Below the pieces are notes generated by a model that was not told the DNA's origin, ran no database searches, and was given only the letters and a program-made list of their open reading frames with translations. This document shows positions 5,163-49,343 of a DNA stretch of 64,000 nt, in pieces. Source of the stretch: a bacterium (GTDB taxonomy: Bacteria; JAJVIF01); NCBI GenBank assembly GCA_022072165.1, contig JAJVIF010000002.1:186001-250000 (forward strand). The letters are read 5' to 3'. The position numbers and the translations under genes are program-made. The number at the start of each line of letters is the position of its first letter. Position 1 is the stretch's first letter.

Positions 5163-5351
5163 TCACTGCGGCAGTCCGACCTCTGGTGGAGCCGGCAACG
5201 GCGCGAGAGCGAGGCGTGGTGGACCCGGACCGGCATGCGGGTCGGGCAGTCGCCCTACTACAAGGGTCGCACCGATGGCCAGACCGAGCGCGAGCCACAT
5301 GCCGACTGTCAGGGTGGTCGAAGGGATGTCCAGTTCATCGACAGGTTGCAT
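5163..5351 (-). CDS. Small single-membrane-span protein, unrecognised
   Basis: This 62-aa ORF has an ATG preceded by AAAGGGG about 8 bp upstream on the minus strand. It contains one hydrophobic segment (about residues 14-34, around VGMWLALGLAIGATLVVG) and a Pro-rich tail. It is divergent from mrp, whose start is 128 bp away. The membrane segment and ribosome binding site support a real gene, but there is no family recognition and no coupling to neighbours, so it remains tentative. Confidence 0.4.
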   Translation of the reverse strand: MQPVDELDIPSTTLTVGMWLALGLAIGATLVVGRLPDPHAGPGPPRLALAPLPAPPEVGLPQ

Positions 5352-5479
5352 GCGATTCGCCCCTTTCGACGCTGGTACGAACCCGCCCGAAGTGAAGTGC
5401 CACCCGTATACTCAGGCAGGCAAGCCGCCACGTCCTTAACCACCTCGGGAGGCATCTGAAGGAGACTGAAGCGCAACCT

Positions 5480-6547
5480 ATGGCAGATGTAACGGAACAA
5501 CAGGTCCTTGATGCGCTCCAGGTCGTCAAAGACCCGGACCTGCACCGCTCCATTGTCGATCTCGGCTTCGTCCAGCACCTGCGAGTCTGCGACGGGATCG
5601 TCGCATTCACCATCGTACTGACCACCCCCGCCTGTCCGGTGAAGGATCAGCTCAAAGACGAAGCCATCGCGGCGGTCAAAACGCTTCCCGGCGTCTCCCA
5701 GGTGAATGTGGAGATGGACGCCAGTGTCCGCTCGTTCCAGTCGAAGGATATGGGCGCCCGTTTGCCGGGTGTCCGGAACATCCTCCTGGTCTCTTCGGCC
5801 AAAGGAGGGGTCGGCAAGAGCACGGTCGCGGCGAACATTGCCGTGGCGTTGGCCAAAACCGGCGCGAGTGTTGGACTCCTGGATGCAGACATCTATGGTC
5901 CGAGTGTCCCGATCCTCTTTGGACTGGAAGGACCGCCGGAGGTCGTGGACAACAAGATCCAGCCGTTCGAGAAGTACGGTGTCAAACTCATGTCGATCGG
6001 CTTCCTGATCACCGAGGAGCAGGCGGTCATCTGGCGCGGTCCCATGGTGATGCGGGCGCTCACGCAGTTCTTTGATGACGTGGAGTGGGGCGCGCTGGAC
6101 TACCTGGTTCTCGACCTCCCCCCCGGCACGGGGGATGCCCAGCTCACCATCGCCCAGTCGCTGGATGTCGCCGGGGCGCTCATCGTGACGACCCCGCAGG
6201 ATGTCGCGTTTGCCGATGTCCGCCGGGGGATCCAGATGTTCCGCCAGACCAGCATCAACATCCTCGGCATCATCGAGAACATGGCGTTCTTCGTCTGTCC
6301 CTGCTGTGGGGAGGCGACGGAGATTTTCCAGCCGGGGCGACGCCGCCAGGCCCGGGAGGATGTGGAAGTCCCCTTCCTTGCCCGATTGCCCATCGATCCG
6401 GCCATCGCCGATGCCACCGACAACGGGATGCCCATCGTGGTCGCCCAACCGGAAAATCCGCAGGCGCAGATTTTCCAGCAACTGGCGGGCGAGGTGGTCC
6501 GGGAGTTGGCCAAGGTGCACTACCGGGAAGAGCTGGCGACCGCCTGA
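5480..6547 (+). CDS. mrp: Mrp/NBP35-family iron-sulfur carrier ATPase
   Basis: Mrp/ApbC proteins are cytoplasmic P-loop ATPases that carry Fe-S clusters to target proteins. This 355-aa protein has the common two-part layout: an N-terminal MIP18/DUF59 domain (residues about 5-75, VLDALQVVKDPDLHRSIVDL) and a SIMIBI-class ATPase domain. The deviant Walker A motif AKGGVGKST begins near residue 107. A CPCC motif near 273-276, for cluster binding at the dimer interface, is followed by the usual iPld-type ending. The ATG at 5480 has GGAG upstream at long spacing (about 15 nt). It converges with the PKD lipoprotein array 22 bp downstream. Confidence 0.95.
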   Translation: MADVTEQQVLDALQVVKDPDLHRSIVDLGFVQHLRVCDGIVAFTIVLTTPACPVKDQLKDEAIAAVKTLPGVSQVNVEMDASVRSFQSKDMGARLPGVRNILLVSSAKGGVGKSTVAANIAVALAKTGASVGLLDADIYGPSVPILFGLEGPPEVVDNKIQPFEKYGVKLMSIGFLITEEQAVIWRGPMVMRALTQFFDDVEWGALDYLVLDLPPGTGDAQLTIAQSLDVAGALIVTTPQDVAFADVRRGIQMFRQTSINILGIIENMAFFVCPCCGEATEIFQPGRRRQAREDVEVPFLARLPIDPAIADATDNGMPIVVAQPENPQAQIFQQLAGEVVRELAKVHYREELATA

Positions 6548-6569
6548 GCCTGTTGGGAGCGACCTGCGG

Positions 6570-9260: not shown

Positions 9261-9337
9261 TGGTCGCTCCTCGGATAGCGCTGACAGTCCCAACGTACGG
9301 TTGGGGAGTTACAGATGCGGGACGGCAGCATGTCGGG

Positions 9338-12016
9338 CTACTGCCAGACGCTCCAGTCGATTTCTCGGGCCGTGAACGGTCCGCCGCCGTACTTGTCGGT
9401 CAGCCAGAGTGCCATGTGACGGCCATCGGCCATCCCCAGCACCTGTTGTCCGATCCGGGCAAAGCTGCCACCCTCTACTGCCATACCAGTGATACCGCTC
9501 AGACTGCCCAACGGAGTGGTCTCAGTGAAGCGGATGTAGTTGATGTAGGTGGTGGGCTGGTTGTGGCTATGGGTGAGGACGCCCTCGCCCTGGGGATTGA
9601 ACCCGAAACCGAAGTACGCCTCCGACCCCGTGGTCACCGACCGGGCGACTGAGAGCGGCGTCCAGGAGGAGCCATTGAACTGGCCCATGCTGATCGATGA
9701 CTGCGTGCCGGACCCGACGGCCAGCCAGATGGTGCCGTTGGGTGATCGTGCCAGTACCGGGTTCGAATTGCGGCTGACGCCGTTGTACGCGAAGGACTGT
9801 GAGCCCCAGCTGCCGCCGGTCGTTTTGTTGTACTTCAGTCCTACGGTGTACGTAGAGGTGATCGATGTGACGCCGTTGTACTGCTGCTCCACGCCGGACC
9901 AGACAGCGAGCCATTCGTTGTCCGCAGTCCCAACGAAGTCCATGTCCTCGTCACTCAGGGTGTATGACCCGCAGGCTGTGGAGTTCAGCACAACGTAGCG
10001 ATCGCCAATCTGCGTGATCGGCGCCCAGGCGGTGCCATCAAAGCTGGTGAAGTAGACCGGCATCGCCGGACCCGGAATCGCCGGGCAGACCGTACCACCA
10101 CGTCGCTTGCCGGCAAAGCCCAGAGTCCCGTCGGGACGGGCCGCCAGTATGCCGCCGGTCCAGACATTCGTACCGGAGGCATAGGTCGTGATCGGCCCGA
10201 CGATGCTCCAGGTGCCGTTTTCCAGCTTCGCGTGCCGGAATTCGGGATAGGCACTCGGCATCGTTGGTCCAGTGAACGATGCATGGAGCGTATCGCCGAC
10301 CGCTGCCAGCGAACAGTTCCACTGGTAGTTACTGGTGTTCAGTGTCGATGACACCAGTGTCCGGGGCTGCCAGGTGGGCGGGCACCCGCTGTACTCCTGA
10401 TGGTAGTGCTCGAACGTGTACGCGGGGAAAGTACCCGTGACTTCCGGATAGAGCACATGGACCGCCCCATCGGCGGTCTGCACCAGGTTGTGGGTCACGT
10501 TGGAACCAAAGCCCTGGTACTGCTCATAGAGGCTGTTGTTGGTGAGCCGCTGGGTCGCGTTCCAGGTCGCACTCCCCGAGACATTGATACTGGCCGTGGT
10601 GATGTTCCAGCCCGATGGGGTGCCATCGCTGACCCGAAGCGCGACCGTCCGGGTCCCAGCGCTGGGGTACGCCTGCGCCACCAGCATCCCTGAGGCATCC
10701 ACTGTGAAGTTGCTGCCGTCATAGTCCCAGTCCCATTCGTACGCCGTGATCGGATTCGAACCGGGAGTGCTGGGCGATGCATCGAAGGTGTCGCCGATCC
10801 CCACTTTCATGTCGCCGCCATAACAGCGACTGAAGGCAGCAGTCGGAGGCAGGCTGGTGTTGCCAACCGCGACCGGGAAGAGCTGATACGTCACATAGCT
10901 GGTGATGGTGACCGGCGAGGTGAGATTCTCCTGCAGCGCGACCCCACTGGTGGCACTGTCCGTGACTGTCACGAGCCCCCAGTAGTCACCCTCGAGGCCC
11001 CCAGCAAGATTTGTCACCAGCACAGTGCCTGTCAGCGGTGTCGGGTCGGTCCCTGTGCCACTGAGGGAGACAGTCAGCGGACTCGTGGTGACTCCCGGCA
11101 CCTGCAGCGTGGCCGATGCGACATCGCTCCCCAGCTGCTGGCCATGCTTCCAGTCCCAGATATCGACCTGGTACTGAGCGGTGGAGGCGGTCTGCCCGGC
11201 TTCCAGATTGTTAGCGAGTTCCGTCACTGCCACTTTCCAGGCGGCGTTGCCCGCAAATTTCGGCAGTTCATATTGCGGGGTCTGGCGGGTCGCCCGGACT
11301 GCAGACTGCCCATAGTCAGCGGTCAGATAGAGCCGGAGGGTGACCGCGCTGGCGTTGCTGAGCTGGAGCGACAGGGTCGCCGTCGATTCCATGCCGGGGA
11401 AGAAGACGTTGTAGCCAGCAGGATTCTGAAAATCGAACGCTCCAGCCGCAGCATCTTCCCGGAGCAGAATGTAGGGCTGGACCGGTGCAGCATTGAACCC
11501 GGGAGCTGCGGATGCCGTGTCAAGCCACATCCGGCCATAACCTGCCGCATTAGTCACGATTCCCGGGAGCGCCGAGACTCCGCCAAGATTCACCGCCGGC
11601 AGGTCGCTGACCGCCCAGCACTTCAGGTTGAAGATGGCGAGGTCCGGACGGGCGGTTGGGGCGAAGGGATGCCGGATCCCGAGTTCCACCTCCACTTCCC
11701 CATTCGGCCCGAACTGGAACCCGCGCACCTGGAAGTTGCGACCAAACATCGTCGTAAAGGCCGGTGCCAGCCCCAGTTCGCTGTAGGTGTCGCCGATGGC
11801 GGCAGTCGCCTTGTCAGCGGCGAGTGTCACCTGCTGGCTCACGGGATCCAGGTGCAGATCGAATCCTCCCAGCAGGCCCCCTTCACGAGGAACTCCCGGC
11901 GCGAAGGGGTCCGACCCCGTAACGGCCGCTGGTGCCAGTGGAGCGGAACCTCCCTGGCAGCCGAGAAGCAGGGTCGAGACCGCCAGGAGTCCGATGGTGG
12001 TGCTGTGAGTCCTCAT
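9338..12016 (-). CDS. PKD-domain lipoprotein, array copy 2
   Basis: The 892-aa product starts at ATG 12016, with GGAGG about 9 bp upstream. Its signal peptide ends in LLLGC, a clear lipobox. The order is the same as in copy 1: front module (AAIGDTYSELG, LGIRHPFAP, IWDWKHG), then a PKD domain (ITAYEWDWDYDG) near residues 395-485. The C-terminal region contains LARSPNGTIWLAVGSG and ends REIDWSVWQ. The C-terminal half differs strongly from the sister copies while the front half is close to them. It lies 77 bp from copy 1, with no clear terminator between. Confidence 0.85.
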   Translation of the reverse strand: MRTHSTTIGLLAVSTLLLGCQGGSAPLAPAAVTGSDPFAPGVPREGGLLGGFDLHLDPVSQQVTLAADKATAAIGDTYSELGLAPAFTTMFGRNFQVRGFQFGPNGEVEVELGIRHPFAPTARPDLAIFNLKCWAVSDLPAVNLGGVSALPGIVTNAAGYGRMWLDTASAAPGFNAAPVQPYILLREDAAAGAFDFQNPAGYNVFFPGMESTATLSLQLSNASAVTLRLYLTADYGQSAVRATRQTPQYELPKFAGNAAWKVAVTELANNLEAGQTASTAQYQVDIWDWKHGQQLGSDVASATLQVPGVTTSPLTVSLSGTGTDPTPLTGTVLVTNLAGGLEGDYWGLVTVTDSATSGVALQENLTSPVTITSYVTYQLFPVAVGNTSLPPTAAFSRCYGGDMKVGIGDTFDASPSTPGSNPITAYEWDWDYDGSNFTVDASGMLVAQAYPSAGTRTVALRVSDGTPSGWNITTASINVSGSATWNATQRLTNNSLYEQYQGFGSNVTHNLVQTADGAVHVLYPEVTGTFPAYTFEHYHQEYSGCPPTWQPRTLVSSTLNTSNYQWNCSLAAVGDTLHASFTGPTMPSAYPEFRHAKLENGTWSIVGPITTYASGTNVWTGGILAARPDGTLGFAGKRRGGTVCPAIPGPAMPVYFTSFDGTAWAPITQIGDRYVVLNSTACGSYTLSDEDMDFVGTADNEWLAVWSGVEQQYNGVTSITSTYTVGLKYNKTTGGSWGSQSFAYNGVSRNSNPVLARSPNGTIWLAVGSGTQSSISMGQFNGSSWTPLSVARSVTTGSEAYFGFGFNPQGEGVLTHSHNQPTTYINYIRFTETTPLGSLSGITGMAVEGGSFARIGQQVLGMADGRHMALWLTDKYGGGPFTAREIDWSVWQ

Positions 12017-12073
12017 GGTCTGGAGCCTCCGGCTCAGGGCAAGTGTGGTGTGGCGAAAAAAGTGGCGAACGAG

Positions 12074-14740
12074 TTACTGATAGAGCGCGGCATCCAGTTC
12101 GAAGCCGGAGAAGAACGCCCCACCGTACTTCAGGGTCGACCAGACCGCCACATAGCGGCCATCGTGCAGCCCGGCGATCATCGCGGGATACCGAAAAGTT
12201 GAAAGTGTCGGCTCCACCAGATGCGGTGTAAAACCGGAAATGGCAGCAGGGGTGTCAGTCTGACGGAAGCGCTTGCTGTTGAACGGCACATTGCTGTTCT
12301 GGTAAGTGACGGCGAAGGTGCCCCGGCCATCGTCATCGAAATTCAGGCTGAAGTAGGGCGTACTCCCCAGTCCACCGGGCAGGACGATGGTCATATCACT
12401 GTCCCAGGTGCCGCTGGAGTAGCGGGCCAGCCCGATGGGACTGCCCGTGCTGCCAGCGCGAGCGATGAGCCACAGCGTACCGTTGGGGGAGCGTTCGAGA
12501 ATCGGATGACGGTACTGTCCGGCACTGGTGTAGAGATTCGCTTCTGCCTGCCAGACCCCACCAACAGTCTGCGCCCAGGAGAGCTTGCTCGGGCCGGTGT
12601 TCTGATCGGTGAAGCCATCGAAGGGGGTGACTACCTCGTCCCAGACTGCGACCCATTCATTCGTGGCGGTCGCGGCCAGCGTGGCACCGTAGCCATACAT
12701 GTGTCCGGTGTTGCCACAGGTGGGAATGTTGACCACGATGTCACCCAGGCCGATGGTGCTCACGGAGCCCCAGGACCCGCTGGTTCGTTTTACGAACTGC
12801 AACTGCCACGGAATGGCCGGAGTTCCCGGACAACTGGGCTGCGTGGTCCGCAGGACTGTCAGGACCCCCAGCGTCCCATCCGGACTCGCCGCGATCGTCG
12901 AGCCGGTGAGCCTTTCGGTGTTGTTGGTATGGGTCATCACCACTTCCTGCGTGCCCCAGCCACCGGCGGTCCGGGGGCGATAGATCAGCTGATCGCGGCT
13001 GGAGCCATCCCGCTGGTTGAGCAGCGCATGGACGGTGTTGTCGCTGGTCGCGGCGAGGGAGAACTTCCGGGTGATCTGCTGCGAGGCGGGGGTCGTGAAG
13101 AAGTTCTCCGGGGCGGTCCAGCTGCCAGCGACATCGCAGGTGCTGGGGAGCTGCATGTACCAGTACTCAGTGGCGAATGGACTGGCACTCTGCACGATGC
13201 TGAAGACCAGATGCGCGGTGCCATCAGAAGTCACGACCAGGCTGTCCGGTGACTCGGTCAGCTCGCAGAGGACTTCCTGAATGCTGTTCGTCGTGAGTCG
13301 CAGCGGTGTCTGCCAGACCGGGGGTCCTGAAACTGACACCGGCCGCACCAGCGTATGGCTGTTGCCGAAACCGTCACTCACTCGCAGCGCGGTCTGGTAG
13401 TTCCCCGCTGCCGGGAACTCGTAGTCCACGGTGGAACCAGTCGCCATGACATCGAAAGTGGGATCGATGTAGTCGAAGTCCCACTCGTAGCTGACAATCG
13501 GATGCGTGCCGGGCGTGCTGAGGCTGCCATCGAAGTGGGTGTCGGTCTCGGCCTTAATGGAAAGGAAATTGCACGCGGTGAACTCTGCGGTCGGGGGCAC
13601 CGCCGTGGCGCCGGCGACACTCACCGGGAAACATTGCCAGGTGGAGTAGTTGGTAATGGTGACCGGCTCGAAGTCTTCGTTCAGCCCGACACCGCTGGTC
13701 GCCTGATCCGTCACACTCACCAGCCCCCAGTAGTCGCCGGCGGTCACCGACGGGTCACAGAATGCCGAGATGGTGCCTGTGAGGGGGGTCGGGTCGGTCC
13801 CGGTCCCGGTCAGCGCCAGCGTCACCGGAGCAGCCATCACGCCCGGGATATCCAGGGTCGCGTCGATGACATCGCTCCCCAGCGACTCCCCATGCTTCCA
13901 GTCCCAGATGTCGACCTGGTAATCCGCGGAGGAGAGCTGCCCCGCCTCGAAAAAGTTGTTGAGTTCCGTGACTGCGATCTTCCAGGGGGCGTTGCCCGCG
14001 AACTTCGGCAATTCGTATTGCGGATTCTGACGGGTCGCCCGGACCGCGGACTGCCCGTAGTCGGCGGTGAGGTAGATCCGCAACTGGACAGAGGTCGCGG
14101 TGCCGAGATCAAGCGCGACCGTATCAACGCTGGTCATGCCGGGGAAAAAAACGTTGTATCCCGCAGGATTCAGGTGCGAGAACGCGCCGGCCGTGGGGTC
14201 TTCGCGGAGCACGACATAGGGCTGCACGACCGCCGCGCTGAACGCCGGCGAAGTGACCGCAGTCTCGGCCCAGAGGCGACCATAGCCATCGGCATTCGTG
14301 ACCAGGCCGGGGGCCACCTGAACACCTCCCAGATTCGTGGCTGGCTGACTGCTCACCACCCAGCACTTGAGGTTGAAGATCGCGAGGTCCGGACGGGTGG
14401 CCGCACTAAAGGGATGTGTGGTCTCAAAATCGACTTCAATGGTGGTCGGCCCGGTCGAGCGAAGCCCCCGGACCCGGAAGTTTTTCCCGAAGCGTTCCTG
14501 CAACGCGGGTCCGAGTCCAATCTCACTGAAGGTGTCGCCGATGGCAGCAGCGGTCGCATCTGGCAGGAGCGCGACTGTTCCAGCCTCCCGGTCGATGTCC
14601 AGCACGAATCCGCCAAGGAAGCCCCCTTCCATCGGCAATTGCAGCTGGGGCGCCCGCAAGGAGGATGTTGTCGGTGTCGACGCGGCACAGGCGGTGAGCG
14701 CCAGGGCCAACACGGGACTACAGCGAAGCCAAGAGCGCAT
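12074..14740 (-). CDS. PKD-domain lipoprotein, array copy 3
   Basis: The 888-aa product begins at ATG 14740, where GGAGG lies about 6 bp upstream; the 39-codon upstream extension of the frame is rejected because it crosses a terminator-like hairpin and has no signal sequence. The lipobox is ALTAC. The front module (AAIGDTFSEIG, ETTHPFSAA, IWDWKHG) is followed by a PKD domain (IVSYEWDFDYID). The C-terminal half contains LERSPNGTLWLIARAG and ends FELDAALYQ. A terminator-like hairpin at 14804-14837 separates it from copy 4, so it probably has its own promoter. Confidence 0.85.
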   Translation of the reverse strand: MRSWLRCSPVLALALTACAASTPTTSSLRAPQLQLPMEGGFLGGFVLDIDREAGTVALLPDATAAAIGDTFSEIGLGPALQERFGKNFRVRGLRSTGPTTIEVDFETTHPFSAATRPDLAIFNLKCWVVSSQPATNLGGVQVAPGLVTNADGYGRLWAETAVTSPAFSAAVVQPYVVLREDPTAGAFSHLNPAGYNVFFPGMTSVDTVALDLGTATSVQLRIYLTADYGQSAVRATRQNPQYELPKFAGNAPWKIAVTELNNFFEAGQLSSADYQVDIWDWKHGESLGSDVIDATLDIPGVMAAPVTLALTGTGTDPTPLTGTISAFCDPSVTAGDYWGLVSVTDQATSGVGLNEDFEPVTITNYSTWQCFPVSVAGATAVPPTAEFTACNFLSIKAETDTHFDGSLSTPGTHPIVSYEWDFDYIDPTFDVMATGSTVDYEFPAAGNYQTALRVSDGFGNSHTLVRPVSVSGPPVWQTPLRLTTNSIQEVLCELTESPDSLVVTSDGTAHLVFSIVQSASPFATEYWYMQLPSTCDVAGSWTAPENFFTTPASQQITRKFSLAATSDNTVHALLNQRDGSSRDQLIYRPRTAGGWGTQEVVMTHTNNTERLTGSTIAASPDGTLGVLTVLRTTQPSCPGTPAIPWQLQFVKRTSGSWGSVSTIGLGDIVVNIPTCGNTGHMYGYGATLAATATNEWVAVWDEVVTPFDGFTDQNTGPSKLSWAQTVGGVWQAEANLYTSAGQYRHPILERSPNGTLWLIARAGSTGSPIGLARYSSGTWDSDMTIVLPGGLGSTPYFSLNFDDDGRGTFAVTYQNSNVPFNSKRFRQTDTPAAISGFTPHLVEPTLSTFRYPAMIAGLHDGRYVAVWSTLKYGGAFFSGFELDAALYQ

Positions 14741-14803
14741 GTGCGCCTCCTGCAGGGAGTGACATTGAGGACGTGAACCGGGGAACGGCGTCGGAACCCC
14801 AAT

Positions 14804-14837
14804 GGTAACAAAACGAGCCGGGAAGTATCCCGGCTCG
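14804..14837 (-). terminator. Rho-independent terminator after PKD lipoprotein copy 4
   Basis: The stem CGAGCCGGGA / TCCCGGCTCG (14814-14823 with 14828-14837, 4-nt loop) is followed on the minus strand by TTTTGTTACC. It lies 27 bp past the stop of the gene at 14864-17503. Confidence 0.8.
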
Positions 14838-14863
14838 TGACTGCAGTTTGTCAGCAATTTGGG

Positions 14864-17503
14864 CTATTCCCAGAACAGGGCTTCCAGCTCCTGGCCTTCA
14901 GTAAACGCCCCGAAGCGGGTCGACTGGAACACCATCGCCCAGCGTCGATCCGCCAGACGGACTGTTACCGGGAAGCGCTGCAGGATCCCAGTCGCAGACG
15001 GCACCATCGTGGTGTTCGGCATGGCTGCAATCGTAGCGATGGAGTCGGATTGCTGGAAGATCTTGCTGGTCATGGGCGTGCCGAAGTTTGAGCCGCCGGA
15101 CATCAGCATCCCCTGCCCATCCGGGGCGAAGGCCAGGTACGGCTGTGCGCTCCCGAGAATGCCAGTCAACGCGGTGGTGGAGGCGGTCCAGACAGTGCCG
15201 TCATAGGTCATCAGCCGGATGTTGGTCAGGTCGCAGTGCGTCAGCCAGATGGTTCCATTCGGGCTGGTCGCCATGACGATCCGGAAGGAGTCAACCGGAA
15301 CGCTGGTCAGAACGGACTCCGAACCCCAGACGCCCCCGGTGGTCCGGTTCCACTTGGTCATACAGGCACTGCTGACCGCGGAACCACCCAGGTGCGGGGT
15401 CTTGAGGGTATCCCAGGCCGTGATCCACTCGTTGGAGAGAGTCGAAGTCAGGGAGGCCGACAGGATGCGACCGCTCCAGCCTCCACCTCCGGACTGCGAT
15501 GTCACATAAGACGTTGTGCCGATCAGTTCCTGCGGCTGCCAAACTCCCCCGACGGTCCGGATGGCATACATCTGCCCCGACACCGCCGGGATGCCGCCAC
15601 CATTGACCGCAGCCGGGTCTTGTGGTGGCTGGAAGTGCGCGACATAGCCGAGTTCATCGGCATAGTTGCGGGCAATCCAGCCGTAGTTCCAGCCCCCGGT
15701 TCCGGGGGTGGAGGTGATGTTCACCGGGGCCGACCAGACGCCTCCGGTGTTGTGGATGTACCGGACGTTGTTCACACTCGCCAGGAACGACACATGGAGC
15801 CGGTCATCGCTGGTGATCGCCATCCCCACCGGGAAGACGCCACCACCGCCTGATGTGAAAATCTCGGTGGGAGCAGACCAGTCCGAGGAGCAGGGCGCGA
15901 GGGTCTGGTGGAAGATACTGTACGGCGACCCGGCGCGGTAATGAATCAGATGCGCGGTGCCGGTGCTGTCGATGCCAATCACCGGCGATGTCCGGGACTG
16001 ATCTTCCCAGCGGTTCCAGTAGGTGTCGTTGGTGATCCGGATCGGCGTGGTGGACCAGGAGGGGGGGCCGGTGATCGCCAGCAGCGAGCTGGCGATGTCG
16101 AATCCCGCCGGACTCCCATCACTCACCCGCAGCGCGACAGTGGGGGTCCCCACTGCACTGAACGACTGGGTCGCGATGACACCCGTGGCATCGACCGTGA
16201 AGTTGCTGCCGTCGTAATCCCAGTCCCATTCGTAAGAGACGATCGGATTGGTGCCCGGCACGCTGCTGGAGGCATCGAAAGTTTCGATGATGCCGATGGA
16301 GAGGTCTCCCCCCAAACAGCGAGTGAAAGCGGCGGTCGGCGGCTCGGCCACATCCTCCACCGACACATCAAAGACCTGATAGGTCACATAGCTGCCAAAG
16401 CTGACGGGCGTGGTGAGATTCTCTTCGAGCCCGACTCCTTGATTCGAGTCGGTGACCGTCACCAGCCCGAAGTAGTCCCCTTCACCGGCCGAGGCTCCAT
16501 TCGTGATGAGGGTCGAGGCAGTGAGTGGGGTCGGGTCGCTGCCGGTTCCGCTGAGACTCAGGGTCACCGGCGCGGAGGTCACCCCCGGCACCTGCAGTGT
16601 GGCAGAAGCAACATCACTCCCGAGTCCCAGGCCATGTTTCCAGTCCCAGATGTCGACCTGGTACTGCGCGGTCGAACTCGGCTGCCCGGCCTGCAGATCA
16701 TTCGCAAGTTCGGTCACCGCGACTTTCCACGCGGCATTGCCGGCGAACTTCGGCAGGTCGTACTGTGGATTCTGGCGAGTCGCCCGGACCGCTGACTGCC
16801 CATAGTCCGCCGTGAGATAGAGCCGCGCCTGGAACGTGTTGCCCGTGGAGAGGGTCAGCGCGAGGGTATCGATGCTGGTCTGGCCGGGGAAGAGGACGTT
16901 GAAGCCGGCGGGCGACTGATAGTTAAACGGCGCGGATGAAGGGTCCTCCCGCAGGATCACATAGGGCTGGACCGGGGCGGCGGTGTAGTCCGGCTGGCTT
17001 CCTGGATGCGTCACGAGCCAGGTGTTGGAATACCCATCGGCGTTGGCCAGGACTCCGGGGGCGGCACTGACACCACTCAGATTCACCGGAGCCCGGTCTG
17101 TGACCACGAAGCACTTCACATTGAAGATCCCCAGGTCCGGGCGATTCGCCGGGCTGAAGGGATGCGTGATTTGTACATCGACTTCGATGGTGTCCGGCGC
17201 GGGACGCCGGACCGCGATCACTCTGAAGTTGTCGCCGAATGTTTTGTTGAACGCCGGGGTAAGTCCAAGTTCGCTGTAGTCATCGCCGATGGCGGCGGAC
17301 TGACGTACGGGGGTGAGCTCGGCATGATTCGTCGTCAGATCGATCATCAGATCGGCGGCGAACAGCGGCCCGGTGGAAGGGTCCTGTGCCAGTGCCAGCG
17401 CTGCCGACTGCTCCTGGGCTGCCGGAGAAACCGGGGTCGCACTCCGCTGACAGGAAAGCAGGAAGAGGGCAGGCACCATGAGGGCCAGAGCTGGGGTACG
17501 CAT
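14864..17503 (-). CDS. PKD-domain lipoprotein, array copy 4
   Basis: The 879-aa product starts at ATG 17503 with AAGGAG about 6 bp upstream. The signal peptide ends with the lipobox LFLLSC. The first ~410 residues, up to the PKD domain, are nearly identical to copy 5 (for example SAAIGDDYSELGLTPAF and ITHPFSPA). The PKD domain carries IVSYEWDWDYDG. After about residue 490 the two copies diverge, here with ATSPNGTIWLTHCDL and the ending ELEALFWE. A terminator follows. It is predicted to be surface-anchored with unknown ligand. Confidence 0.85.
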   Translation of the reverse strand: MRTPALALMVPALFLLSCQRSATPVSPAAQEQSAALALAQDPSTGPLFAADLMIDLTTNHAELTPVRQSAAIGDDYSELGLTPAFNKTFGDNFRVIAVRRPAPDTIEVDVQITHPFSPANRPDLGIFNVKCFVVTDRAPVNLSGVSAAPGVLANADGYSNTWLVTHPGSQPDYTAAPVQPYVILREDPSSAPFNYQSPAGFNVLFPGQTSIDTLALTLSTGNTFQARLYLTADYGQSAVRATRQNPQYDLPKFAGNAAWKVAVTELANDLQAGQPSSTAQYQVDIWDWKHGLGLGSDVASATLQVPGVTSAPVTLSLSGTGSDPTPLTASTLITNGASAGEGDYFGLVTVTDSNQGVGLEENLTTPVSFGSYVTYQVFDVSVEDVAEPPTAAFTRCLGGDLSIGIIETFDASSSVPGTNPIVSYEWDWDYDGSNFTVDATGVIATQSFSAVGTPTVALRVSDGSPAGFDIASSLLAITGPPSWSTTPIRITNDTYWNRWEDQSRTSPVIGIDSTGTAHLIHYRAGSPYSIFHQTLAPCSSDWSAPTEIFTSGGGGVFPVGMAITSDDRLHVSFLASVNNVRYIHNTGGVWSAPVNITSTPGTGGWNYGWIARNYADELGYVAHFQPPQDPAAVNGGGIPAVSGQMYAIRTVGGVWQPQELIGTTSYVTSQSGGGGWSGRILSASLTSTLSNEWITAWDTLKTPHLGGSAVSSACMTKWNRTTGGVWGSESVLTSVPVDSFRIVMATSPNGTIWLTHCDLTNIRLMTYDGTVWTASTTALTGILGSAQPYLAFAPDGQGMLMSGGSNFGTPMTSKIFQQSDSIATIAAMPNTTMVPSATGILQRFPVTVRLADRRWAMVFQSTRFGAFTEGQELEALFWE

Positions 17504-17643
17504 TCGGGACTCCTTCGCAGGACGCGGAGATGCTCAAGGGACGACAGAGCGTTGGATGGCTCCATCTTACTGCGAATCTTGATGCCACGACCAGCAGAAG
17601 GCCGCTTGTGGCCTCGAACCGTCGGTAGCGGGGACAGTCAGAC

Positions 17644-20286
17644 TTACTGCCAGAACGAGCTTTCGAGCTCCATACCGCTCTGCCAGGCACCGTAGGTTTC
17701 GCCCTCCCAGAGGGTTACCCAGCGGCCATGACCGAGGGAACCGACCTGCGGGAAGAAGCGTCGCCCAGTCCCGGCGGCCAGGACTGTCAGGTCCGGCGAG
17801 GCGGCGATGGCGGCTGGTGTGTCGGTCTGGAGGAAGCGCTTTGCCCGGACCACCTGTCCGGTGGAAGCCACGGAACTGGTGACGAGCATCCCAGCTCCAG
17901 TCGCCTGATCAAAGGCAATCTGGAAATGCCCGGAGCCGCTCACCGAGTGAATCAGGGTCAGGGTCGGACTCCAGGCCGCGCCATCGTAGGTCGCCAACCG
18001 GACCTGAGCGGAGGTTTCTACGCCCATGAACAGTGTCCCGCTCGGAGCGCGGCGCAGATGTGGCCGGTCATGCAACGACAGGGCGGTGTAGAGCGATGCC
18101 GGAGCCTGCCAGGTGCCGCTGTTAGTACGTGCCCACATGACATTGGAACTGGAAGAGACCGTACCCGCTCCCAGGAACGGATTCTTGAGGTTGGACCAGG
18201 CCGCGACCCAGTCGCTGCCGCTGGTCCCCTCGAGGGTCAGACTCGGGACAGACCCCTGTGAGTGATTGAGCTTGTGGTCCATCGCCCCGATCTGCTGGAG
18301 GGCGGTCCAGCTCCCAGAGACATAGCGTGTGAAGTAAATCGGCGACGGGGGCTCGGGGATGCCATCCGTGGGGCCGCCACCACTGGCCGATGGCAACTCC
18401 CGCAACAGCGCGAAGCCCAGCTGCCCCGATCCATTCACCGCCAGATTGGGGGTAGACCAGTACCCCGGTCCAACGTTGGTCGTAATCGGCACCATGGCCG
18501 ACCAGGTCCCATTGGTCTCCCGGGCCATCCACCCCTGCTCGGTGCCGTTGTAGGTCCCGGTCACATGCAGGCGATCATCGGGTCCGATGGCGAGACTGAT
18601 GGGAACCCAGAGCTGATTCCCGATCGTGTGAATCTGCTGAGCCGCGGTCCAGGTGCTGGTGCAGGGGTCCAGGGACTGGTAGTACATGGTGAAATCGTAG
18701 AGCGGTGCGACACTGCCGTAGTCGTAGTAGACGATGTGCACCACGTTATTGGAGTCGGTCACCATCCCGTTCCCGATTTCGCTGTAGTCCCCGAACTGAT
18801 CCCAGAAGCTGTTGTTGGTGACCCGCATCGGCGTCCGCCAGGAGGCAGTCGGATTGATCGCCATGATGGTCGTGGCGATGTCCCAGCCGGTAGGCGTGCC
18901 ATCACTGACCCGGAGTGCGACGGTCGGCGTTCCTGCGGCGCTGAACGGATGGGTCGCGGTGATACCCATGGCATCGACCGTGAAGTTGCTGCCGTCGTAA
19001 TCCCAGTCCCATTCGTAGCTCGTGATGGCGTTGGTGCCAGGTGTGCTGCCTGACGCATCGAACGTCTCCCCGATGCCCGTCCCCAGGTCCCCGCCGATGC
19101 AGCGCGTGATCGCGGCGGTCGGCGGCACGCCGACAACTTCCACTGCGACAGGAAAGACCTGATAGGTCACATAGCTGCCGAAACTGACGGGCGTGGTGAG
19201 ATTCTCTTCGAGCCCGACTCCCTGATTCGAGTCGGTGACGGTCACCAGCCCCCAATAATCGCCTTCACTGGACGAGGCTCCATTCGTGATGAGGGTCGAA
19301 GCGGTCAGCGGGGTCGGGTCACTCCCGGTCCCGCTGAGACTCAGGGTCACCGGCGCGGAGGTCACGCCCGGGACCTGCAGAGTGGCGGATGCGACATCGC
19401 TCCCGAGGCCCTGCCCATGCTTCCAGTCCCAGATGTCCACCTGGTACTGCGCGGTGGAGGCAGGCTGCCCGGCCTGCAGGTCGTTCGCAAGCTCGGTCAC
19501 CGCGACCTTCCATGCGGCGTTGCCGGCGAACTTCGGCAGGTCGTACTGCGGCGTCTGACGAGTCGCCCGGACCGCAGACTGCCCATAGTCCGCCGTCAGA
19601 TAGAGCCGCGCCTGGAAGGTATTGCCCGTGGTGAGGGTCAGTGCGAGGGTGTCGATGCTGGTCTGGCCGGGGAAGAGGACATTGAAGCCAGCGGGCGACT
19701 GATAGCTAAACGGAGCGGAGGAGGGGTCTTCCCGCAGGATCACATAGGGCTGAACCGGGGCGGCGGTGAACTCCGGCTGGCTCCCGGGATGGGTCGCGAG
19801 CCAGGTGTTGGAGTACCCATCGACATTGGCCAAAACGCCCGGTGCAATGCTGACGCCACTGAGATTCGCAGGTGTCCGGTCAGTCACCACGAAGCACTTC
19901 ACATTGAAGATCCCCAGGTCCGGGCGACTCGCCGGACTGAAGGGATGCGTAATCTGCACATCGACTTCGATCGTGCCTGGCGCGGGGCGTCGGACCGCCA
20001 CGACCCTGAAGTTGTTGCCGAAGGTTTTGGTGAACGCCGGAGTCAATCCAAGCTCGCTGTAGTCATCGCCAATGGCGGCGGACTGACGTACCGGGGTCAG
20101 TTCGGCGTGATTCGTCGTCAGGTCGATCATCAGATCGGCGGCGAACAGCGGCCCGGTCGCCGGATCCTGCGCCAGCGTCGGAGCTGCTGATTGCTCCTGG
20201 GCTGCCGGAGCAACCGGTGTCGCGCTTCGCTGACAGGAGAGCAGAAAGAGTCCGGGCAGTAGCAATGCCAGCGAGAGGATGCGCAT
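17644..20286 (-). CDS. PKD-domain lipoprotein, array copy 5
   Basis: The 880-aa product starts at ATG 20286, giving an N-terminus MRILSLALLLPGLFLLSC with a lipobox; a 13-codon upstream extension would bury the signal peptide. A weak GAGG lies about 13 bp upstream of the ATG. Its front module and PKD domain (ITSYEWDWDYDG) are almost the same as copy 4. The C-terminal region is different, with LRRAPSGTLFMGVETS and the ending ELESSFWQ. It is the first gene of the array in the direction of transcription. A TACACT -10-like box lies at 20328-20333. Confidence 0.85.
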   Translation of the reverse strand: MRILSLALLLPGLFLLSCQRSATPVAPAAQEQSAAPTLAQDPATGPLFAADLMIDLTTNHAELTPVRQSAAIGDDYSELGLTPAFTKTFGNNFRVVAVRRPAPGTIEVDVQITHPFSPASRPDLGIFNVKCFVVTDRTPANLSGVSIAPGVLANVDGYSNTWLATHPGSQPEFTAAPVQPYVILREDPSSAPFSYQSPAGFNVLFPGQTSIDTLALTLTTGNTFQARLYLTADYGQSAVRATRQTPQYDLPKFAGNAAWKVAVTELANDLQAGQPASTAQYQVDIWDWKHGQGLGSDVASATLQVPGVTSAPVTLSLSGTGSDPTPLTASTLITNGASSSEGDYWGLVTVTDSNQGVGLEENLTTPVSFGSYVTYQVFPVAVEVVGVPPTAAITRCIGGDLGTGIGETFDASGSTPGTNAITSYEWDWDYDGSNFTVDAMGITATHPFSAAGTPTVALRVSDGTPTGWDIATTIMAINPTASWRTPMRVTNNSFWDQFGDYSEIGNGMVTDSNNVVHIVYYDYGSVAPLYDFTMYYQSLDPCTSTWTAAQQIHTIGNQLWVPISLAIGPDDRLHVTGTYNGTEQGWMARETNGTWSAMVPITTNVGPGYWSTPNLAVNGSGQLGFALLRELPSASGGGPTDGIPEPPSPIYFTRYVSGSWTALQQIGAMDHKLNHSQGSVPSLTLEGTSGSDWVAAWSNLKNPFLGAGTVSSSSNVMWARTNSGTWQAPASLYTALSLHDRPHLRRAPSGTLFMGVETSAQVRLATYDGAAWSPTLTLIHSVSGSGHFQIAFDQATGAGMLVTSSVASTGQVVRAKRFLQTDTPAAIAASPDLTVLAAGTGRRFFPQVGSLGHGRWVTLWEGETYGAWQSGMELESSFWQ

Positions 20287-20366
20287 GAAGCCTGGGCCTC
20301 GTGGAGGGGCAGATATGCAGTGCACTCAGTGTACGTCTGAACCGTGCCGGAACTGACCCTCCAGGA

Positions 20367-45459: not shown

Positions 45460-45657
45460 ATGGATATCGCCCTGGCCCAGACCTCGACCCAGCTCGCCCA
45501 GACCGCTGTCCAGGCGGCAGCGACTGTCGCCCTGCTGAAGAAGTCCGCAACGCTGCCGCAGCAGGCGATGCTGCAGCTCATCCAGCGATCCGTGGTCCCG
45601 CCGCCCCCAGCGGCGAATCCGCCCGGGGTCGGCACCCTCCTCGACATCCGGGCCTGA
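45460..45657 (+). CDS. YjfB-like small protein
   Basis: The 65-aa product is MDIALAQTSTQLAQT followed by a helical segment (VQAAATVALLKKSATLPQQAMLQLI) and a Pro-rich tail. The opening MDI and the amphipathic helix with KK fit the YjfB family (putative motility protein), whose role is poorly known. No flagellar genes are in the window. No Shine-Dalgarno site precedes the ATG, but a promoter is placed for a leaderless mRNA. Confidence 0.55.
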   Translation: MDIALAQTSTQLAQTAVQAAATVALLKKSATLPQQAMLQLIQRSVVPPPPAANPPGVGTLLDIRA

Positions 45658-45739
45658 ACCCCGCATCCCCGGGCGAAACTGCTGCCCTGTCGACAACATG
45701 CCCTCTTTTGTTCCACGGGGGAACGCCAATCGTTGTCCC

Positions 45740-45769
45740 TTGCCCTCGCACAACCGTGGGGCGTATCCT
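45740..45769 (+). promoter_or_regulatory. Promoter of the cobalamin riboswitch operon
   Basis: TTGCCC (45740-45745) and TATCCT (45764-45769) are separated by 18 bp. The expected start near 45776 lies just before the closing stem of the riboswitch at 45781. Confidence 0.5.
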
Positions 45770-45780
45770 TGCATCCTCCT

Positions 45781-45929
45781 CATCGGCATGATGGGAACCC
45801 GGTGTGAATCCGGGACGGACGAGCCGCTGTAAGCGGGGAGTCGGCAGCCACGATGCCAGTGTGTCCGGACAGGACATGCGAAGGCGGCTGACCGATGGTG
45901 ATCCGCGAGTCAGAAGACCGATGCCGATG
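45781..45929 (+). promoter_or_regulatory. Cobalamin (B12) riboswitch aptamer
   Basis: The sequence shows the signatures of the cobalamin aptamer: GGGAACCCGGTGTGAATCC, then GACGGACGAGCCGCTGTAA, a GCCACGATGCCA segment, and the 3' box around GAGTCAGAAGACC. The closing helix P1 is perfect over 9 bp: CATCGGCAT (45781-45789) with ATGCCGATG (45921-45929). The length of 149 nt is within the family range. It lies directly upstream of a surface lipoprotein operon, so it should lower the operon's expression when cobalamin is plentiful. Confidence 0.9.
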
Positions 45930-45939
45930 CCATTGCCGA

Positions 45940-45982
45940 CCTTTTCTGCCGTCGTACGGTCTCGACTTGCCGTACAGAAAGG
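45940..45982 (+). promoter_or_regulatory. Riboswitch expression platform: Shine-Dalgarno-sequestering hairpin
   Basis: GTACGG (45954-45959) pairs with CCGTAC (45970-45975), and outside it CTTTTCT (45941-45947) can pair with AGAAAGG (45976-45982), which contains the ribosome binding site AAAGG. The ATG follows at 45994. No long T run follows the hairpin, so control is probably at translation rather than termination (inference). Confidence 0.6.
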
Positions 45983-45993
45983 CGCTCCCGCCC

Positions 45994-48216
45994 ATGTTCA
46001 TCCCTGCCCACAGACGCTGGTGGCTGGCCACCTGCAGTCTGTTGCTCTGCAGCCTGCTGCTGATGAGTTGCAGTCGTACGACCTCCTTCATCCCACATAA
46101 CCCCGTCGATGTCACACCACATTTGGCATCTCTGCCACTCGCGGCGGCGGACCTGGTCATCGATGCCGACACCGGCACGTTGAGTCTGCTGGAGCGCGAA
46201 GGCATGGCCGCCGGCGACCCGCTGGTCTTTGCCGCGACTCCCCTCTTCCGACGATCCGCTCTGCGTCTGGAGGGGATTCGACGCCTTTCCGATAATCGGC
46301 TGGGACTGACCCTGGCGATCCGGCATCCACTGGCAGCGCCGGAGCCGGGGACGATCGATCCGTCGTTTCACGCCACTGATGTCCTGGGCATCCTGGTGTT
46401 TGATGGGTCCGGCACAATCTCTATAGGGAGCGAGCGAGTACATGCTGGCTGGCTGGACGCGCATGGCTACACCGATCTGTTGCAGCAGCAACTGACCAAT
46501 GGATTTCAGACCACTGCCACCTGGCATCCCTATGTACTTCTGAGCGCCGACGGGCGTCAGCCAAACTACGATCCCGCGACCCTGCATGGCTGGACCGATC
46601 TGGTAGCCCCCCGGGGTCTGAACGTTTTGCCGCAAGGGTGCGACTGGCGTTCCACAGAGCTCATCCTGGATTTGCCTCCAGGAGAGCATCGGGTCCGGCT
46701 GGCGATCCAGGCCTCGATTCAGCAGGTGCCGGTGGGCAACACGGAAGCACCGCTCCCGGCGCAGTACGCCTATCCCGAAGGGAATCTGGCAGCCGCATGG
46801 GGAGTCGGGGCGGAGATTTGGAACAACGATCTGACCGCCGGGACACCGGCGAGCGGTGCCGAGCTCGATGTCCTGGTCTACGACTGGCAGCATGGGACCC
46901 CCGCCACAAGTCCCTGGTCCATCAGCGACCACAAAAGCATGGTGCGACAGGTCAGCGATGTCGCCAGTGTCCGGGTCCTGGTCCCAGCGCTGGGCCTCGA
47001 CCTCACACAGCCAGGGAGTGCGGCGGTGAGCGGCACAGGACGTCCGGGGAGCCCGCTACGTTTCACGTTCCCCCTGACCAATCAGACGGGAGTCGGCGCG
47101 GGGACCTACTGGGCGCTGATCGATGTCCGCGACACCCGGAGCGCGGAAGGGCTGCGTGACAGCGATGGTCAGGTGCTGACTGCTCCCCAGGGCTTCCGCA
47201 CTGGGCAGATTGTCCCGGTGTCCGTGTTCCCTGCAACGGGTCCTGAGCGACTGGTTGGACTGCAACTCGCGACACAGCATCAGATTTTTGTCGGACCCCA
47301 CCTGCCGGTCTCGCTGACTGCCCGAGGGCGACTCAGTACCGGTGCGCTGATCCCACTGGACCAGGGGAGCATCGAACATCGCCTGCTGAGCGGGACTGGC
47401 GCGATGCTGACTGGTGCCACGGTCGAGCGGACCCTCCCTCGCGATGAGCGGGGGACCGCACTCCTGGAGTCGCGGCTCACAGAAGGACCAGCCCTGATTC
47501 GGGGTCGCACGACTTTGGTGTTGGGGGATCCTTATGCCGATCAGGTGGTGGACTATGCGCCGCTCTGCGGAGCGGGCGGGAGTGGCGCGAATCCGCAGCT
47601 GGCGCTGGGGGGGCCCCGTGGCGCAGGACGCTTTTCCGGCAACGCGGATCACATTGTGTCGCTGGGATATGGCGGCAGTCTGACCCTGGCGTTCACCGAT
47701 GGGGGCATGCTGGATCGTCCGGGTCCAGACTTCATCGTCTTCGAAAACGCGTTTGAAATCGGGCAGGACCCGGACCAGGTCTTCACGGAAACTGTACGGG
47801 TGGAAGTCTCCGCGAATGGCACCGACTGGGTTGCCTTCCCGATGGACTATCGCCCCATCGGAGAACTGCCGTGGCGTCGCCCCTGGAACTTCACGGGCGT
47901 CGCCGGGATTGCCCCCGTACTGGCCAATGTAGTCACCAACAGCCTCGACCCCACCAATCCGGCGGAAGCCGGAGGCGACCTCTTCGACCTCGCGACCATC
48001 GGGCTCCCCTACGCCGCCTTCGTACGACTCACCGGGACCGGCATCGACAGCACCAGCCCCTGCTACAGCGGCTGCCCGCTGTCGAACCGGATGACTGACG
48101 TGGATGGTGATCTCATTGATGACGAAGGCAAACGGGCGACCTGCAGTTCGGTGATCGGCGGCCCTGACATTGACGCGGTCGCGATTGTTGCGGGGCATCA
48201 GGGCTTCCCGGAATGA
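45994..48216 (+). CDS. Cobalamin-riboswitch-controlled surface lipoprotein
   Basis: The 740-aa product starts at ATG 45994 after AAAGG; the ORF extension upstream is the riboswitch itself. The signal peptide ends in the lipobox LLMSC (Cys26). Residues about 40-400 are the front module shared with the PKD and FG-GAP lipoproteins: LAIRHPLAA, GYTDLLQQQ, VLVYDWQHG and GTYWALIDVRD. The C-terminal ~200 residues form a different domain: VSLGYGGSLTLAFTDGG, PGPDFIVFENAFE, VEVSANGTDW, and an ending PDIDAVAIVAG. As far as I recall, domains of this pattern occur as cell-surface proteins in B12-regulated loci. It is coupled by ATGA to the next gene. A role in capturing cobalamin or holding a transporter partner is inferred. 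Confidence 0.85.
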   Translation: MFIPAHRRWWLATCSLLLCSLLLMSCSRTTSFIPHNPVDVTPHLASLPLAAADLVIDADTGTLSLLEREGMAAGDPLVFAATPLFRRSALRLEGIRRLSDNRLGLTLAIRHPLAAPEPGTIDPSFHATDVLGILVFDGSGTISIGSERVHAGWLDAHGYTDLLQQQLTNGFQTTATWHPYVLLSADGRQPNYDPATLHGWTDLVAPRGLNVLPQGCDWRSTELILDLPPGEHRVRLAIQASIQQVPVGNTEAPLPAQYAYPEGNLAAAWGVGAEIWNNDLTAGTPASGAELDVLVYDWQHGTPATSPWSISDHKSMVRQVSDVASVRVLVPALGLDLTQPGSAAVSGTGRPGSPLRFTFPLTNQTGVGAGTYWALIDVRDTRSAEGLRDSDGQVLTAPQGFRTGQIVPVSVFPATGPERLVGLQLATQHQIFVGPHLPVSLTARGRLSTGALIPLDQGSIEHRLLSGTGAMLTGATVERTLPRDERGTALLESRLTEGPALIRGRTTLVLGDPYADQVVDYAPLCGAGGSGANPQLALGGPRGAGRFSGNADHIVSLGYGGSLTLAFTDGGMLDRPGPDFIVFENAFEIGQDPDQVFTETVRVEVSANGTDWVAFPMDYRPIGELPWRRPWNFTGVAGIAPVLANVVTNSLDPTNPAEAGGDLFDLATIGLPYAAFVRLTGTGIDSTSPCYSGCPLSNRMTDVDGDLIDDEGKRATCSSVIGGPDIDAVAIVAGHQGFPE

Positions 48217-49343
48217 TCCGCACCGGTCTGTTCACCACAGGAGTGTTGTTCATCGCCGGGTGTGCCGTCGGCAACAGCGGCATCGGACCAGCCACACCAT
48301 CGGGCGAGTTGCCGGCGGTGCCGCAGGGCGGGACTGTGCTCATTGCCAACAGCCTGAGCGAAACGCTCTCTCGTCTGGACCTCACCACGACGCCTGCCCG
48401 GATGGAACCGCAGGTAGCGCTGACGGGTCAAGCGCCGAACGCGCTGCTGCTTTATGGGTCAGAGATTCTGGTGGTGAATTCGCTGTCGAACTCCGTGCAG
48501 CTACTCGATCGTCAGACGCTCTCGCAGGTGGCGGAGTACAGCCTCGGGAGTCGCACGAATCCCTGGGACGCCGTCATCGTGGGCGACACCGCCTGGGTCT
48601 CCTGCTGGGTGAGCCAGGAAGTCGTTGGGCTGGACCTCACCGATGGCACGATCCACCAGCGGATTGCGGCACCCACCAGCGACGGGTTGCCTCATGTGCC
48701 GGGAGTCACGACCCGGGCGTATCCGCAGGGGATGGCGCAGGACCTGAACGAGTCGCGGATCTACGTGGCGTTGCCGAATCTGAACGCTCAATTTTTGCCG
48801 GCGGGTGCGGGAGTCCTCTGGACCCTGACCCGGGATGGTGACTCTTTTCAGTCCGATGGCATCACGGTGCTGGAGCCTGCGGCGAACGCGGCCGATGTCA
48901 CGGTGAGCAACATCGGGGGGCGTCCGGCGGTCATCGTGGCCTGCGCTGGCGACTTTGAGTCGGGGACTGGCTATCGGGAAAACGGCACCCTGACCTGGCT
49001 CGATGGCGTGACCTTGCAAGTGCGCGAGCACAGGCTGGTGGAGAGCGCACCGGTCCGGGTGACCGCTCGTGGCCCCTGGGCGTATGCGCCAGGAGCGCAG
49101 ACAGGAGATGTGGTCGCGCTGGAGTTTGGGGCCACTGCTGCCCCGGTGCGCATCACCCTCCCGGACGCGGGGGCGGGGCAGAACTACGCTTCCGCCGTGG
49201 CCTTTGGCGATGACACGACCCTGCTTGCGTTGCAGTTCAACAGCGATCGCCTGTATGCCATCGATGTGCGGACCTGGACGGTCAGTGGTGGCGTGACGAC
49301 CGGCGATGGTCCGGTCGCTCTGCTGGTGCTCCCCCGGGAGTGA
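48213..49343 (+). CDS. BtuG-like YVTN/YncE-type beta-propeller lipoprotein
   Basis: The 376-aa product has a lipobox (FIAGC, Cys17). The mature part is built of repeats typical of YncE/YVTN seven-bladed propellers: GGTVLIANSLSETLSRLD, SEILVVNSLSNSVQLLD, TAWVSCWVSQEVVGLD, and later NSDRLYAIDVRTW. In Bacteroides the surface lipoprotein BtuG is a beta-propeller of this type that binds B12 with very high affinity. The riboswitch and coupling to the preceding lipoprotein make a BtuG-like role the best guess. No BtuB-type receptor or BtuCDF lies next to it. Its ATG overlaps the upstream stop by 4 bp. Confidence 0.85.
   Translation: MIRTGLFTTGVLFIAGCAVGNSGIGPATPSGELPAVPQGGTVLIANSLSETLSRLDLTTTPARMEPQVALTGQAPNALLLYGSEILVVNSLSNSVQLLDRQTLSQVAEYSLGSRTNPWDAVIVGDTAWVSCWVSQEVVGLDLTDGTIHQRIAAPTSDGLPHVPGVTTRAYPQGMAQDLNESRIYVALPNLNAQFLPAGAGVLWTLTRDGDSFQSDGITVLEPAANAADVTVSNIGGRPAVIVACAGDFESGTGYRENGTLTWLDGVTLQVREHRLVESAPVRVTARGPWAYAPGAQTGDVVALEFGATAAPVRITLPDAGAGQNYASAVAFGDDTTLLALQFNSDRLYAIDVRTWTVSGGVTTGDGPVALLVLPRE

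Follow-up and report, generated by a model that had tools for sequence, protein, structure and literature searches.

Architecture of the locus

Within the 64-kb stretch of contig JAJVIF010000002.1 that was analysed (hereafter the window), a cobalamin riboswitch stands upstream of two genes encoding lipoproteins: P0001, in which an N-terminal module is followed by a distinct C-terminal domain, and P0002, a BtuG-like beta-propeller (Table 1). The initial annotation of this stretch had proposed a cobalamin aptamer closed by a perfect 9-bp stem, and both elements were recovered, the former by a covariance-model search (in excess of the RF00174 gathering score of 31.5 bits) and the latter as exactly complementary arms; the aptamer is the sole non-tRNA Rfam match across the window. 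The promoter-like boxes listed alongside it found no support in a sigma-70 consensus scan of positions 45640-46020, and in the same interval neither a terminator-like hairpin nor an intrinsic terminator was found after the aptamer. Since no intrinsic terminator was found 3' of the aptamer, we guess (and it is a guess only) that control is probably translational rather than transcriptional. The hairpin of the expression platform (fold of -16 kcal/mol, z = -0.70) is no more stable than shuffled sequences.

Table 1. Features of the riboswitch and the two-gene operon (positions are those of the window)
Feature	Position	Strand	Remarks
Cobalamin riboswitch aptamer (RF00174)	45767-45942	+	78.0 bits, E 1.6e-17; full-length model match (1-189)
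P1 closing stem, 5' arm	45781-45789	+	CATCGGCAT; exact reverse complement of 45921-45929
P1 closing stem, 3' arm	45921-45929	+	ATGCCGATG; perfect 9-bp pairing with 45781-45789
Short expression platform and ribosome-binding region	45943-45993	+	GTACGG/CCGTAC hairpin directly 5' of AGAAAGG
Gene 1, lipoprotein P0001 (740 aa)	45994-48216	+	Lipobox LMS-C26; G002 and G003 homologues share this architecture
P0001 N-terminal module (residues ~45-415)	46126-47238	+	Common to many large lipoproteins of the window's genome
P0001 C-terminal domain (residues ~513-740)	47530-48213	+	Distant LIC_13355 relative; linked to cobalamin riboswitches across phyla
Gene 2, BtuG-like beta-propeller lipoprotein P0002 (376 aa)	48213-49343	+	Lipobox IAG-C17; overlaps gene 1

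As first described, the two genes are joined by an ATGA overlap (48213-48216) and both products carry a lipobox, the lipoprotein signals being read from the sequence. A longer version of gene 1 (a 773-aa open reading frame, ORF, from the ATG at 45895) was rejected, as its start would fall within the aptamer, and the ATG at 45994 was preferred. P0001 has 48 matches in the window's genome (G000) and 72 in the related genome G001, nearly all of them within the N-terminal module, which by sequence comparison is a generic, lineage-specific lipoprotein stalk; its candidacy as a B12 element was dismissed, as only three of the 48 matches in the window's genome stand behind riboswitches. Direct sequence searches of P0001 and P0002 against solved structures gave no useful match, and profiles were required.

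Conservation of the operon among relatives

The comparison within the phylum comprised four genomes (G000 together with G001, G002 and G003); a scan of the genome collection for homologues returned only the three relatives already known, and none was found in the plasmid records searched. The propeller is present in all four, and each of their RF00174 sites has a lipoprotein, propeller or TonB-receptor gene downstream. The fullest arrangement was seen in G003, where the riboswitch is followed in a near-gapless run by a P0001-like lipoprotein, a TonB receptor and the propeller; the same three genes occur in G002 at the end of a contig, which stops before the riboswitch position. The C-terminal domains of the P0001 homologues in these two genomes show 34-37% identity. 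G001 has separate riboswitches, one before the propeller and another before a BtuB-like TonB receptor, whose best family is TIGR01779 (BtuB; 178 bits, next best 129). Where TonB receptors are linked to such genes, the B12 model was among their best families, ranking first for three of the four. Apart from these genes, G003 and G002 encode another kind of propeller lipoprotein under riboswitch control (P0017; L053:2529-3230, L054:2184-3584), which is no more than a distant relative of P0002.

A propeller close to BtuG

On its own, P0002 was recognised through YVTN repeats (TIGR02276) in NCBIfam, with no match over threshold in Pfam. The structure check bore out the propeller claimed for it: the AlphaFold2 model (built on four homologues) reached a mean predicted local distance difference test (pLDDT) of 83.9 and a predicted template modelling (pTM) score of 0.85, and a Foldseek search of the PDB placed an archaeal S-layer propeller (1l0q) first and BtuG-type chains at all ranks from 2 to 17, several of these 16 matches containing bound cobalamin. 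Similarly, a profile of 11 riboswitch-linked propellers matched all BtuG chains (E-values from 1e-10 to 5e-14), with only 1l0q scoring better. The corrinoid pocket of BtuG2 includes Trp194, Tyr239, Trp272, Tyr316 and Tyr335 (PMC10404256); in a low-identity alignment Tyr316 and Tyr335 fall opposite Tyr325 and Phe342, and Tyr239 opposite a Phe that is found in P0002 only. An hhalign comparison of a four-sequence profile with BtuG2 alone was discarded as blade-shifted and meaningless, the 11-sequence profile having given a sensible register.

The C-terminal domain and cobalamin riboswitches across phyla

The C-terminal domain of P0001 matches NF033170, the model of the Leptospira LIC_13355 family, with 64.3 bits (E 1e-17 to 1e-18) and does not reach the curated cut-off of 120 bits; going by sequence, it is a relative and not a member of that family. 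Because the model derives from Leptospira and holds no B12 annotation, it served as an unbiased probe. Matches, all below the curated cut-off, were obtained in 26 of the 385 genomes searched, from which 20 loci outside the phylum were sampled (two congeners and one doubtful match being omitted) and 7-14 kb around each was scanned. At 19 of these 20 loci, chosen by the domain alone, an RF00174 site lies upstream of the domain gene and in the same orientation (as judged by comparing coordinates), in a sample that was one of convenience, included three genomes from one family and contained partial aptamer matches at L087 and L102, the latter with a weak domain match as well. For 18 loci the site fell within the first stretch scanned and for the nineteenth (G130) just beyond it, while only ~0.11 linked loci would be expected from the 30 RF00174 sites present in the 79 Mb of the sampled genomes. 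The exception (G330, locus L099) has the domain and no cobalamin riboswitch anywhere in its genome; this organism may use another B12 regulator, or the domain another ligand. A repeat in another phylum with a 22-sequence profile yielded three new strong loci, each with riboswitch, TonB receptor, propeller and domain in this order, and thus the linkage holds for 22 of the 23 genomes sampled from other phyla.

The company of the domain varies. A propeller is present at most of the 20 loci and a TonB receptor at nine of them; propeller and domain are fused in one ORF at L095, L098 and L100, and at L085, L086, L091 and L094 the domain stands alone behind the riboswitch, with neither propeller nor receptor in the stretch examined. 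Its means of attachment vary too, as by eye we recognised PEP-CTERM-like tails or C-terminal tails resembling type IX secretion sorting signals (L085, L095, L097, L099, L103). In the 22-sequence alignment the domain is well conserved, with the motifs SLGxGG, VFEN, VSxDG, GGDxFDL and FDLDA. No Pfam family covers these 22 sequences, their profile matched no solved structure, and searches of open-access papers turned up no account of the domain in a B12 setting.

B12-related genes elsewhere in the genome

The genome of the window (3.26 Mb in four contigs, 99.1% complete) contains three RF00174 sites. The second precedes an 807-aa lipoprotein (P0016; L004:5598-8021, minus strand), in which a P0001-like N-terminal module is fused to a P0002-family propeller (65 bits). 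The third lies downstream of the gene for an adenosylcobalamin-dependent ribonucleotide reductase (1440.5 bits against a cut-off of 859) and is followed by an operon (L005:8059-13932, plus strand) with genes for a 575-aa pyrroloquinoline quinone (PQQ)-like lipoprotein, a putative fused S component (P0013), a double ATPase of the energy-coupling factor (ECF) type and a CbiQ-type T component (P0015; PF02361, 80.8 bits, over the cut-off). P0013 has no family match and carries a large extracytoplasmic lipoprotein-like part ahead of its membrane part. Judging by its gene content, this operon may encode an ECF transporter for B12, in an organism that has a TonB receptor and lacks BtuC. Given that the reductase is present and that CbiC was not found in the genome, B12 scavenging would fit the gene complement.

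The initial annotation held that no BtuB or BtuCDF lies nearby, which is true of the locus itself, and a FecCD (BtuC-type) permease was not found anywhere in the genome; the statement needs amending in that a single TonB receptor (P0006, with Plug and barrel domains) is encoded on another contig (C1) and has the BtuB model TIGR01779, weakly matched, as its best family. Because G002 and G003 carry a BtuB-like receptor within the same gene run, the separate location of receptor and lipoprotein genes in the window's genome suggests a rearranged form of a single operon. The genome's sole PF01497 protein was rejected as BtuF, as no signal peptide is visible in it by eye and its score of 33 bits lies far below the BtuF cut-off of 234. 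As a side observation, the P0006 gene overlaps (ATGA) that of a 397-aa lipoprotein without a family match (L010:6605-9867, minus strand).

A putative corrinoid-capture operon and its alternatives

We read the locus, with a probability of about 0.8, as a riboswitch-controlled corrinoid-capture operon, i.e. a BtuB/BtuG-type system that lies outside Bacteroidota and has acquired a partner domain new to such systems, in which corrinoid binding is predicted. A surface-type role in cobalamin capture is well supported because the riboswitch, the fold of P0002, the BtuB-like receptor in the same operon of two relatives and the recurrence of these genes behind RF00174 in other phyla all point to it. 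The initial annotation had likewise seen a surface cobalamin-capture pair, built on a different anchor protein; its capture role with a BtuG-like propeller finds good support, but the partner is not merely an anchor, as only the N-terminal module of P0001 is generic and the C-terminal domain is tied to cobalamin riboswitches across phyla.

At low intracellular cobalamin the riboswitch would permit expression of both lipoproteins, which would capture corrinoids at the cell envelope, presumably on its outer surface. P0002 would hold the corrinoid on its central face and pass it to the BtuB-like TonB receptor, made from the same operon in the relatives and from another contig in the window's genome, while the stalk of P0001 would display the B12-locus-specific C-terminal domain, whose probable role is to bind corrinoid or to dock on the pair of receptor and propeller. 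The ECF-type transporter under the third riboswitch (with B12 as its presumed substrate) would probably carry out the import across the inner membrane, in place of BtuCD.

Several observations weigh against this reading. VIA-align put BtuG level with many unrelated seven-bladed propellers, since BtuG, 6-phosphogluconolactonases and nitrous oxide reductase alike came out near Z 33 for P0002, so that the bare propeller fold, as modelled, is not specific for BtuG. P0002-P0005 had no match at E 1 to DUF5074 (PF16819), the Pfam model of BtuG (in the control, BtuG2 was recognised with 70.9 bits), and opposite the pocket tryptophans Trp194 and Trp272 the low-identity alignment shows no aromatic residue. 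Because DUF5074 is not matched, the pocket residues are partly kept and the fold does not discriminate, we call P0002 BtuG-like only: on sequence and model it falls outside the current definition of BtuG. The receptor P0006 scores 135 bits against the TIGR01779 cut-off of 599.7, and a scan of the 18 kb surrounding its gene gave no riboswitch above threshold. The model of the C-terminal domain failed (pLDDT 31 from a three-sequence alignment) and is unusable. Lastly, BtuL, a lipoprotein of such operons in Bacteroides thetaiotaomicron, does not bind cobalamin (PMC12751083), and for this reason operon membership alone is no proof of binding.

BtuL also lends substance to the alternative that comes nearest to the capture reading, which we hold to be doubtful and yet deserving of attention: the propeller would bind corrinoid and the C-terminal domain of P0001 would not, acting instead as an accessory, for example in docking, in assembly or vesicle release, or in binding a corrinoid-carrying partner. 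The riboswitch-regulated BtuL does affect vesicle release without binding cobalamin (PMC12751083), and the occurrence of the domain alone behind a riboswitch, in the stretch examined, could be understood likewise. However, the direct riboswitch control of these stand-alone copies and the variety of anchors (lipobox, PEP-CTERM-like tail, secretion-type C-terminal tail) are more like a ligand-binding module, as is the fusion to the propeller, given that BtuG1 of B. thetaiotaomicron also fuses two B12-binding domains (PMC10404256). We give even odds to the broader proposition that the domain is a new corrinoid-binding surface domain spread over many phyla (alone, fused to propellers or borne on lineage-specific stalks), that the common B12 capture system of diderms outside Bacteroidota consists of this domain, the propeller and a BtuB-like receptor, and that Leptospira LIC_13355 descends from it.

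It appears improbable that the operon is a B12-responsive substitute, whose proteins would handle another nutrient (for instance cobalt or a heme-like ligand) required under B12 shortage. Cobalamin riboswitches also control B12-independent isozymes and cobalt transporters, P0015 matches CbiQ, and binders of heme d1 and metals (NirN, NirF, AztD) are among the Foldseek matches of P0002; these are nevertheless outranked by the BtuG structures, and the family affinities of the linked TonB receptors (see above) speak for B12. That ordinary surface lipoproteins, involved in adhesion or the cell wall, came by chance to lie behind a riboswitch is the least credible explanation and a very improbable one, since the generic, highly expanded N-terminal module and the reported binding of laminin and plasminogen by Leptospira LIC_13355 (PMC11891782) would agree with it but the linkage of the C-terminal domain to RF00174 across other phyla does not.

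What appears to be new here, on the sequence comparisons made, is the propeller clade and above all the unnamed riboswitch-linked domain. The logic of riboswitch, BtuB-like receptor and BtuG-like propeller lipoprotein is placed in phyla beyond Bacteroidetes, and a partner domain is exposed that has no Pfam entry and no solved structure and stands nearly always 3' of a cobalamin riboswitch, which suggests that a widespread part of B12 scavenging by bacteria has so far gone undescribed. If the domain does bind corrinoid, many proteins annotated as 'hypothetical' or as surface proteins would become B12 scavengers, the competition for B12 outside the gut would gain a testable set of proteins, and Leptospira LIC_13355, now described as an adhesin, becomes directly testable for a role in B12 acquisition.

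Comparison with known systems

With the BtuG-BtuB system of Bacteroides (BtuG2 BT1954, BtuB2; PMC6143338, PMC10404256) the operon shares a lipoprotein propeller, a riboswitch-controlled locus, a TonB receptor (in the operon of the relatives) and an acidic protein (isoelectric point 4.1-4.4 here), and BtuG provides its closest solved structures after 1l0q. In contrast, P0002 comes from another phylum, has no DUF5074 match, shows ~15% identity and does not keep two pocket tryptophans, and the receptor gene of the window's genome lies elsewhere and does not adjoin the propeller gene. By BlastP criteria, BtuG was reported to be confined to Bacteroidetes (PMC6143338). B12 lipoproteins outside that phylum are not unheard of, since a later study observed DUF4465 proteins of several clades beside TonB receptors and propellers of the BtuG type (PMC13398666).

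The fusion of a propeller to a second module has its closest parallel in BtuG1/BtuGH of B. thetaiotaomicron, a BtuG-BtuH fusion (PMC10404256, PMC12751083), resembled by the propeller-domain fusions found at three loci and by the riboswitch-linked P0016 with its N-terminal lipoprotein module. The second domain is, however, not BtuH, as the 22-sequence profile had no match although BtuG1-BtuH (8blw) was in the library searched. The B12-binding jelly-roll proteins of the DUF4465/BtuJ type (PMC13398666, PMC12751083) are likewise small extracytoplasmic domains, often with lipid or C-terminal sorting anchors, beside TonB receptors and propellers; unlike them, none of the 22 domain sequences matched DUF4465 (a search made without a positive control) or a solved structure. 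The C-terminal domain of P0001 may still share their fold.

As regards the Leptospira LIC_13355 family (NF033170; PMC11891782), all 22 aligned domains match its model (best E 4e-20), whereas the matches in the genomes all stay below the curated cut-off and work on the Leptospira protein concerned adhesion and not B12. The operon at the third riboswitch agrees with the CbiQ/CbiO-group ECF transporters in its CbiQ-type T component and double ECF-like ATPase, and differs from them in its putative S component, which is without a family and whose membrane part is preceded by the large extracytoplasmic part.

Proteins with the N-terminal module of P0001, to which no function is assigned, constitute a striking lineage-specific expansion of large lipoproteins: the window itself (positions 5309-20325, minus strand; also L022-L050) holds a row of five or six lipoprotein-type genes of ~890 aa that carry it.

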